Positions 43,385 to 57,839 of a stretch of DNA of 64,000 bases are shown here, piece after piece; within the stretch, counting starts at the first letter, position 1, and the number at the start of each line of letters is the position of its first letter. This stretch comes from Synechococcus sp. CC9616. GTDB lineage: Bacteria > Cyanobacteriota > Cyanobacteriia > PCC-6307 > Cyanobiaceae. The stretch spans positions 2,511,896 to 2,575,895 of the forward strand of contig NZ_KI911558.1 of assembly GCF_000515235.1 (NCBI RefSeq). The letters are read 5' to 3'. Made by a program: the position numbers and the translations under genes. Below the pieces are notes generated by a model. It was not told the origin of the DNA and ran no database searches. It saw nothing but the letters and a program-made list of their open reading frames with translations.

Positions 43385-43457
43385 TGCCAGGACCCAGATT
43401 TGAACTGGGGACACGGCGATTTTCAGTCGCCTGCTCTACCAACTGAGCTATCCCGGC
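43385..43457 (-). tRNA. tRNA-Phe (anticodon GAA)
   Basis: On the minus strand the acceptor strands GCCGGGA and TCCTGGC pair (one G-T), with discriminator A. The anticodon loop CTGAAAA exposes GAA, and the T arm is CCCAGTTCAAATCTGGG. The first ten bases are also the end of comF, whose TAG stop is tRNA positions 8-10. Confidence 0.97.
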
Positions 43458-44086
43458 GTGTCGCCTAAGCGACCGCGACATCTTAAATCACGGCCTGGGG
43501 GCGGTGTACGGGCAAGACAGATCAGCCCCGCGACTCGATGGCCCGATGCCTCGAGGGCGGAACAGGCCGCAAGTGCTGTCCCACCGGTCGTGAGAATGTC
43601 GTCGGCAAGCCAGATGACCTGATCGTTGCCTTGCCAGTCAGCTCTGGTTTCGGCGCGGAAGGCCCCCTGCAGATTGGCGAGCCGTTGGTGGCGGTTCAGG
43701 CTGTGCTGACCAACGCCAGCCCGGGTGCGCTGCAGCGTGGGACGAAACTCCATTCCCATCCCGGCTGCGATCAATTCAGGAAAGGACTGCCGCTGGCGAC
43801 GTCTCCAGCTTGGTATCGGCACTAACACTGCATTCCTTCCCAGGGTGCAGCGATCGGCCAGAAGCTGAACCAATCCCTGCAGCTGAGTTGTATCAGGAAC
43901 CAGGCGCTGTCTGATGACAAGCTTGCGGAACTCTCCTGAGTAAGAGGCCAGTGCCTGAAAGGGCAAAGGGTCTGTCCCGTTCAGAAGAGCCGTTGGAATC
44001 TCCAGTCGCCTGCGACAGAGATCGCAGGGACGTCCTCTTGCGCTGGCTTCAATGCCTTGCCGACAGAGCGGGCAGCAGGGTTCCAC
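43448..44086 (-). CDS. comF: ComF-family phosphoribosyltransferase-like protein
   Basis: A 212-residue protein. An N-terminal four-Cys zinc motif (CCPLCRQG and CDLCRRR) is followed by a type I phosphoribosyltransferase domain with VWLADDILTTGGTALAACS (the PRPP loop, acidic pair in ADDILTTG). ComF proteins take part in DNA uptake and natural transformation. Together with dprA in this window, this suggests competence. The stop codon lies inside tRNA-Phe. Confidence 0.9.
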   Translation of the reverse strand: MEPCCPLCRQGIEASARGRPCDLCRRRLEIPTALLNGTDPLPFQALASYSGEFRKLVIRQRLVPDTTQLQGLVQLLADRCTLGRNAVLVPIPSWRRRQRQSFPELIAAGMGMEFRPTLQRTRAGVGQHSLNRHQRLANLQGAFRAETRADWQGNDQVIWLADDILTTGGTALAACSALEASGHRVAGLICLARTPPPGRDLRCRGRLGDTPG

Positions 44087-56446: not shown

Positions 56447-56518
56447 AGCCGGCTAACGGATTTGAACCGATGACCTTCGCTTTACAAAAGCGCTGCTCTA
56501 CCGCTGAGCTAAGCCGGC
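56447..56518 (-). tRNA. tRNA-Thr (anticodon TGT)
   Basis: On the minus strand the acceptor strands GCCGGCT and AGCCGGC pair fully, discriminator T. The anticodon loop TTTGTAA exposes TGT, and the T arm has GGTTCAAATCC. The first ten bases are also the end of a small LuxR-type gene, whose TAG stop is tRNA positions 8-10. Confidence 0.96.
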
Positions 56519-56718
56519 GTTGAACGCATCGTAAGCATCCACAGCGCCAGCTCCACCCTGTTTTTGCAGCCTGTCTTGGCCAGGGCTCTGCTGATGTGAG
56601 TCTCCACCGTGCGATGGCTTATTACCAGTCGAGTCGCGATCGAACGGTTGGTCAAACCTTCCAGCAGAAGTGCGCTGACACGTTCCTCAGCCGCCGTGAG
56701 TGGAAAACTTGAAGGCAT
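56509..56718 (-). CDS. Small LuxR-type DNA-binding regulator (PedR-like)
   Basis: 69 residues from ATG 56718; an in-frame start at 56796 would overlap minE. It is only a LuxR/GerE helix-turn-helix: LTAAEERVSALLLEGLTNRS, then VISHRTVETHISRALAKTGC (recognition helix) and a C-terminal helix. No receiver domain. PedR of Synechocystis is a similarly small LuxR-type protein that responds to photosynthetic electron transport through thioredoxin; a Cys is present here (TGCKN). The stop lies inside tRNA-Thr. Confidence 0.75.
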   Translation of the reverse strand: MPSSFPLTAAEERVSALLLEGLTNRSIATRLVISHRTVETHISRALAKTGCKNRVELALWMLTMRSTPA

Positions 56719-56749: not shown

Positions 56750-57022
56750 TTAGGAGGAGCTGCCGATCGTTCGGCGAATCGGAAGGTTGGCGACAAGAGC
56801 TGTCACCCGGTCCTCAGTTTCCAGGCTCACGTCCCCTTCCTGAACGTCGATCTCCACATAGCGGGCGACCACCTCAAGAATCTCCTTCCTCATCTGCTCC
56901 AGCAGTTCGGGGTTGAGATCACTTCGGTCGTGAGCCAGCACCAGCTGGAGGCGCTCCTTGGCAGTGCTGGCACTGCTGGGCTGGCGGCCGAGCACTTTGT
57001 CGATCAGATCCTTCAACGTCAT
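56750..57022 (-). CDS. minE: Cell division topological factor MinE
   Basis: A 90-residue MinE. The anti-MinCD segment [20 protein letters not shown] (about 23-42) and the dimerisation strand [20 protein letters not shown] are conserved. MinE stimulates MinD ATPase and restricts MinCD to the poles or membrane. It follows minD with a 4-base gap in the order minC-minD-minE. Confidence 0.95.
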
Positions 57023-57026
57023 CGGT

Positions 57027-57839
57027 TCAGAAGATCTTGGTTTGCATCAGCTGGCGCACCTTGGCACGCAGTCCACGACGGGCTTTGGCCGGATCCATGA
57101 GTGGGATGTCTTCCCCCTGAAGCCGCCTGGCAACGTTGTTGTAGGCCTGCGCAGCCGGTGATGAGCTACCCCCAAGTGTGAGAGGTTCCCCCCGGTTGGT
57201 GCTCACGATCACCTGCTCATCTTCAAACACCAGGCCCAGAAGAGGCAGCGCGAGGATGTCCGTGACGTCGTCCACGGAGAGCATCTCCTGAGTGGACATC
57301 ATCTTGGGCCGAACGCGGTTGAGCACCAGCTGAACCGGGGTGACCCCTTGCGTGTTCAGCAAGCCGATCACACGGTCAGCGTCTCGGACAGCAGCCACCT
57401 CCGGCGTTGTGACAACCACGGCTTCTTTGGCTGCGGAGGCTGCGTTCTTGAAGCCATCCTCAATTCCTGCCGGGCAGTCGATCAGCACGTAGTCGAATTT
57501 CGACTCAAGAAGCGAGACGATCGCTTGCATGTCCTTGGGTGTCAGCCACTCGAGCATGCGGGGGTTTCCAGCTGGCAGGAGAGCGAGATTCGGCTCCTGT
57601 TTGTGCTTCACGAGAGCTTGTTCGAGTCGGCAGGATTCAGCCAGGACCTCCTGAGCTGTGTAGACGATTCGATTCTCGAGACCAAGCAAGAGATCGAGGT
57701 TGCGAAGGCCGAAGTCGGCATCAAGAACCACCGTGCTGCAGCCGAGTCGCGCCAGAGCGATGCCGAGATTGGCTGTGGTGGTGGTTTTGCCGACGCCGCC
57801 CTTGCCGGAACAGATCAGGATTGTTCGGGACGTCGACAA
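57027..57839 (-). CDS. minD: Septum site-determining ATPase MinD
   Basis: A 270-residue ParA/MinD ATPase. Deviant Walker [21 protein letters not shown] at about 9-28, switch [14 protein letters not shown], switch [12 protein letters not shown], and a C-terminal amphipathic helix ([14 protein letters not shown]) that binds the membrane. It recruits MinC to block FtsZ rings away from midcell. Central gene of min operon. Confidence 0.97.

Follow-up and report, generated by a model that had tools for sequence, protein, structure and literature searches.

The window, a stretch of 64,000 nucleotides from Synechococcus sp. CC9616, carries a run of four genes that are read from the minus strand, the last two of which share bases. 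In the direction of transcription, the features are:

57027–57839, minus strand: minD (open reading frame; a homologue was found in 92 of 106 loci, several of which are 842-base stretches too short to reach minD)
56750–57022, minus strand: minE, the neighbour upstream of the regulator (Pfam MinE, 2.6e-26; synteny conserved)
56509–56718, minus strand: coding sequence of a small LuxR/GerE-type helix-turn-helix (HTH) regulator (ATG at 56718; frame open to a TTG at 56796)
56528–56533, minus strand: −10-like hexamer TACGAT, at −15 to −10 of tRNA-Thr and within the regulator coding sequence (recognised by conservation of TANNNT)
56509–56511, minus strand: TAG stop codon of the regulator, which is also positions 8–10 of tRNA-Thr (sequence and ARAGORN)
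56447–56518, minus strand: tRNA-Thr (UGU) (ARAGORN; Rfam RF00005 at G000:C1:2568342-2568413)

With position 1 of tRNA-Thr at 56518, positions 8–10 correspond to 56511–56509. The sequence-only reading had proposed that the regulator ends at these three letters, and ARAGORN and the minus-strand open reading frame confirm it. The stop codon lies within the mature tRNA and on the same strand, which makes the junction a same-strand overlap between a coding sequence (CDS) and a tRNA gene.

We identified the regulator as a GerE/LuxR HTH protein (PF00196, 5.2e-14, 52 bits against a gathering cut-off of 23.5), with the match spanning positions 2–56 of the 57 in the profile. It had been called PedR-like. 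PMC13421787 describes PedR of Synechocystis PCC 6803 as a thioredoxin-sensitive LuxR-type regulator with the C-terminal redox cysteine Cys80. The regulator is likewise a small, one-domain LuxR-type HTH protein, but its score against the PedR profile (NCBIfam NF052366) is 53.7–55.3 bits (55.3 for the 69-residue form, 54.1 for the 95-residue form), less than half of the cut-off of 120. The match stops at position 59 of 74, and the tail of the regulator, LALWMLTMRSTPA, has no cysteine; the cysteine-rich C-terminal segment of PedR is lacking. The genome has its own PedR elsewhere (G000:C1:1741265, 136.3–136.7 bits), with the cysteine-rich end GRICRDGFNCCALPEAEHHEP; the cysteine comparison was made with the profile and with this protein. 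We therefore rejected the assignment to PedR, and the resemblance is confined to the HTH.

To place the junction among relatives, 107 loci were examined. One (L068) was dropped as it has no tRNA-Thr, and eight duplicated a genome already represented, which leaves 98: 28 of the 34 genomes of the genus, G035, 22 from the best 30 loci and 47 from hand-chosen stretches. The genus loci are the best matches to the window regulator and so are biased towards genomes that have it, and the 98 are a non-random sample of the family. A further search over genome contigs gave 38 loci, of which only the first four are Synechococcus, and these were excluded from the counts. A regulator homologue lies upstream of tRNA-Thr in 82 of the 98 genomes. 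Its stop codon is at positions 8–10 in 29, at 19–21 in four and upstream of the tRNA in 49, with no regulator detected in the remaining 16. Within the genus, 21 of 28 genomes have the stop at position 8, counting one (L067) with an extra in-frame TAG farther upstream; upstream stops also occur there, at −5, −14, −28, −38 and −62, the last at an internal TGA (L059). All 90 loci with a recognised regulator have minE upstream on the same strand, minE is also present at 12 of the 16 regulator-less loci (none was found in the other four), and the order minE–regulator–tRNA-Thr is old. Half of the regulator-less genomes (8/16) are neighbouring lineages of about 1.7–2.0 Mb on a tree of MinD and MinE, some of them being incomplete drafts.

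The state 'stop at 8' is clustered on the MinD/MinE tree. Across 94 genomes it required 10 Fitch changes, compared with a minimum of 19 and a mean of 25 in 300 shuffles of the labels; with a tree of these two proteins only, the count takes gains and losses together. The stop at 19 required four changes (four origins) and absence of the regulator three. In the marine clade, the position-8 state is mostly inherited. One genome (G108) stops at 8 within a clade whose other members stop at −15 or 19, and it seems to have gained this state separately. In another (G130), TAC (the frame reads TACAAT) stands in place of the TAA of its relatives, and the frame runs on to 19.

Upstream of tRNA-Thr, a promoter-like hexamer is found at a fixed distance. 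Of the 33 genomes with an overlap, 30 have TANNNT within −22 to −8, always at −15 (TACGAT in 19), comprising all 21 of the genus genomes and 9 of the 12 others, whereas control windows 30, 60 and 90 bases farther upstream have it in 0, 1 and 0 of the 33; the genomes are related, and the counts are hence not independent. The hexamer is also present in 14 of the 16 genomes with no detected regulator, at −15 (12) or −14 (2). Because it persists where there is no regulator CDS, it reads as an element of the tRNA promoter, and its constant spacing makes it probable that tRNA-Thr is served by a promoter of its own within the regulator CDS. For a frame ending at position 8, the −15 hexamer is read as ANN, and no stop codon begins with A. 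Of the 49 genomes with upstream stops, TANNNT occupies −15 or −14 in only 23; in 35 of the 49, a TANNNT begins with the stop codon itself, as in GAGCGATAAGCT. These merged elements lie −14 to −55 from the tRNA, and those far from it need not be its −10 element.

We found no consistent −35 element upstream of the tRNA-Thr hexamer; the candidate TTGAAT was rejected, as it lies 17 bases before the hexamer in one locus (L049) but 14 in another (L052), counted by eye. The merging of stop codons with TANNNT was not significantly enriched beside tRNAs in general (7 of 24 CDSs next to tRNAs in two genomes of the genus against 7 of 51 window CDSs, p = 0.12), so a general rule was dropped and the claim is kept for the Thr junction, the Ser(CGA) and Asn junctions being recorded alongside it. 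In the window genome, 28 of 41 tRNAs have TANNNT somewhere in −45 to −8, a wide interval counted without a control.

How often tRNA letters themselves supply a stop codon was assessed with 213 tRNAs from five genomes (41, 43, 39, 46 and 44). The sequence-only reading took U8, A9 and G10 to be near-universal. This holds for U8, present in 213 of 213, and fails for the triplet, as TAG occupies positions 8–10 in 133 of 213 (24, 24, 24, 29 and 32 per genome; 24/41 in the window genome); both counts are unchanged under a start rule that gives no reward for U8 or A14. We recorded the first stop met in every combination of tRNA and phase (three phases, 639 entering frames) and repeated this with dinucleotide-shuffled tRNAs over 50 rounds. 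The first stop falls at position 8 in 136 frames (three of them TAA), at positions 17–24 in 161 and past the tRNA in 229, so that positions 17–24 capture more frames than position 8. In shuffled tRNAs, position 8 averages 6.5 of 639, with a maximum of 14. A lost stop is thus caught at position 8 about one time in five, by the tRNA sequence alone. The idea that upstream frames meet UAG through the tRNA sequence is supported.

We consider it probable that the regulator and tRNA-Thr are an old head-to-tail pair whose ends have merged, with the −10 element of the tRNA contained in the CDS and the tRNA-borne stop acting as a passive backstop. The −10 element of tRNA-Thr would sit in the 3′ end of the regulator, and the CDS would end at the first stop codon that it meets: a TAA or TAG opening a −10-like hexamer, as in many relatives, failing which the UAG at 8–10, and failing that the UAG at 19–21. 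Should the earlier stop be lost to a frameshift or a point change, translation would run on and end early in the D arm, at U8-A9-G10. The overlap is then most likely a neutral, inherited accident rather than a device, since the last residues are set largely by promoter and tRNA letters, and since other stops occur within the genus. Selection could alternatively be the source of the position-8 state that 21 of the 28 genus genomes have kept.

A functional role for the overlap would come from RNase P, whose cleavage of a regulator–tRNA transcript leaves the regulator without its stop codon. A cut at the tRNA 5′ end would take away the final seven bases of coding sequence together with the stop; each transcript would then yield either the tRNA or the full regulator, and the cut, stop-less mRNA would pass to rescue by tmRNA. 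Such coupling agrees with the position of the stop inside the mature tRNA, with the lack of a gap for a terminator and with the retention of position 8 in most of the genus, but in 49 of the 82 genomes that share the gene order the stop is upstream, some of them within the genus, the residues from the hexamer to the tRNA differ among species, and a promoter of the tRNA's own would make the two genes largely independent; we regard it as unlikely. Its stronger form, a conserved post-transcriptional switch in which RNase P destroys the regulator stop, making tRNA-Thr maturation and regulator synthesis mutually exclusive on each transcript with a link to tmRNA rescue, is disfavoured because upstream stops are frequent in relatives and a separate promoter is probable, and we give it little credence. 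A literature search, restricted to open-access sources, found no account of RNase P removing a stop codon of this type.

The preferred reading, of merged neighbours with a backstop in the tRNA, can be compared with a second junction in the window, where the following features occur:

43448–44086, minus strand: comF CDS, with its end in tRNA-Phe (TIGR00201 comF, 3e-9, under the cut-off)
43480–43485, minus strand: TAAGAT, a −10-like hexamer ahead of tRNA-Phe (within comF in this genome, immediately past the comF stop in relatives)
43460–43473, minus strand: stem-loop in the tRNA-Phe 5′ leader (5 bp stem)
43385–43457, minus strand: tRNA-Phe (GAA) (ARAGORN)

As had been suggested from the sequence, comF (44086–43448), which is unrelated to the regulator, shows the identical arrangement, ending in TAG at positions 8–10 of tRNA-Phe. 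We examined 33 comF loci and scored 25 of them, finding a TGA at −33 in 18, a stop at −122 in one and a score of 8 in six. Four of these six (L266, L377, L380 and L389) were set aside owing to earlier stops in the tail, the stop of the first (from G071) being at −11 in a separate scoring, so that position 8 with no earlier stop is seen only in the window species and its sister G021. All 25 genus loci (25 of 25) have a TGA-N-TTA element ahead of tRNA-Phe, regardless of the frame that comF uses. In the window species and G021, the TGATTTAAG letters are still present but fall outside the comF frame, and comF continues to position 8; in the window species, 11 rather than 18 bases separate the shared Thr-Pro codons from the TGA, consistent with an out-of-frame TGA. 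The entry of comF into tRNA-Phe is recent. The position-8 stops arose separately in comF and in the regulator, where the state is common to many marine relatives.

A third overlap in the same genome was found at comEC, like comF a competence (DNA uptake) gene (Pfam Competence, 4.6e-49), whose TGA is at position 22 of tRNA-Ser(CGA) (G000:C1:1228933-1229019, L169). Of 30 comEC/tRNA-Ser loci examined, 16 were matched, and the stop is at 22 in the window species and G021 only. In nine the stop falls at −28 to −30, in every case inside a TANNNT (TAAAGT or TAGAGT, for example), and five stop earlier, at −55 to −342; these five may be broken or misread copies.

We then counted, in five genomes, CDSs with homology support that end inside a downstream same-strand tRNA. 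Ten of the 62 candidate open reading frames were run against Pfam, and the rest were judged by coding score, rival open reading frames and tblastn. The coding model is a rough one, placing even the window regulator, which was retained by homology, below its threshold of 8, and the count may miss short genes without homologues among the loci. Overlaps affect 3 of 41 tRNAs in the window genome (regulator at 8, comF at 8, comEC at 22), 1 of 43 in a 2.1 Mb genome of the same genus (G033; regulator at 8), 0 of 39 in a 1.7 Mb relative (G083), 0 of 46 in a 3.9 Mb genome (G071) and 1 of 44 in a 5.5 Mb cyanobacterium (G058). In the last, an M48 (HtpX-like) peptidase gene (L318:2-919; Pfam 6e-22) ends at positions 20–22 of tRNA-Leu(CAA), and such overlaps therefore also occur in a large genome. 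Long open reading frames running into tRNA-Arg CCT, Pro CGG, Leu UAA, Lys and two Val tRNAs of G071 were left uncounted, as they have no Pfam support and several have better antisense open reading frames.

These counts bear on the proposal that selection for a compact genome pushes CDSs into tRNAs via U8-A9-G10, a general route in streamlined genomes. It drew on two cases in 64 kb, to which comEC adds a third overlap in the same genome, but the 1.7 Mb relative has no supported overlap where the 5.5 Mb cyanobacterium has one, and the eight neighbouring lineages of 1.7–2.0 Mb have no detected regulator. In this small sample of five genomes the general route was not borne out, and we consider streamlining a highly improbable explanation. 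Counted by eye, about nine separate entries into tRNAs are represented (the regulator in the marine clade, G108, four at position 19, comF, comEC and the M48 peptidase gene), all ending by position 24, as would be expected for 315 of 639 entering frames. This hints, and no more than hints, at removal of longer overlaps, since the tally is post hoc and depends on how many origins are counted.

Codon comparisons indicate that the regulator is a real gene under purifying selection. Median dN/dS values in four groups were 0.118, 0.119, 0.143 and 0.172, the usable pairs numbering 15 of 28 in the clade of the window regulator (median 0.118) and 45 of 55, 8 of 21 and 17 of 45 in the others. Relative to the sister G021, the regulator has 20 synonymous and two non-synonymous differences over 50 codons. 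That its end is the chance extension of a decayed or unexpressed gene, as the in-frame stops in L059 and L067 and the highest single dN/dS (0.878, one within-clade pair) might suggest, can be all but dismissed against these medians, sequence evidence that is strongly contrary, and the presence of a homologue in 82 of 98 genomes. The two genus copies with in-frame stops are possibly decaying.

In animal mitochondria, the stop codon of a CDS can share bases with the next tRNA, and the junctions described here are similar in that the stop is taken from the 5′ end of a downstream same-strand tRNA. They differ in lying on a bacterial chromosome, and in that a promoter for the tRNA itself seems to be contained in the CDS. 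In mitochondria, moreover, mRNAs are released by cleavage at the tRNAs and their stops can be completed by polyadenylation. Among compact bacterial genomes, PMC2768785 gives 94 of 139 gene overlaps in Blattabacterium as same-strand, of 1–70 bp. The overlaps here are likewise of a few bases between tandem neighbours, but the downstream gene is a constrained tRNA, and the D arm sets the overlap length. Our literature search of open-access sources turned up no report of bacterial CDSs that stop at tRNA positions 8–10. The junctions show how bacterial CDS–tRNA overlaps can form and why their ends tend to fall in the D arm, with ready-made stops offered by conserved tRNA letters and, seemingly, by the tRNA promoter. 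For annotation, gene callers that bar CDS–tRNA overlap would trim or lose the regulator, comF and comEC. Together, the three junctions provide a natural test set for the effect of RNase P on an mRNA with its stop inside a tRNA.

Two further observations concern the sequences upstream of tRNAs. At tRNA-Asn(GUU), G000, G033 and G071 all have the stop of the upstream CDS at −19, with TAAGTT or TAGTTT, which could likewise serve as both stop and −10-like hexamer. The stem-loop in the tRNA-Phe 5′ leader (43460–43473, compared across L367–L391) is kept through sequence changes: every pair is present in 21 or all of the 22 distinct leaders, and one pair occurs as both C-G and T-A. Inverted repeats resembling it are found before tRNA-Ser(CGA) and before tRNA-Thr of the relatives with long leaders.
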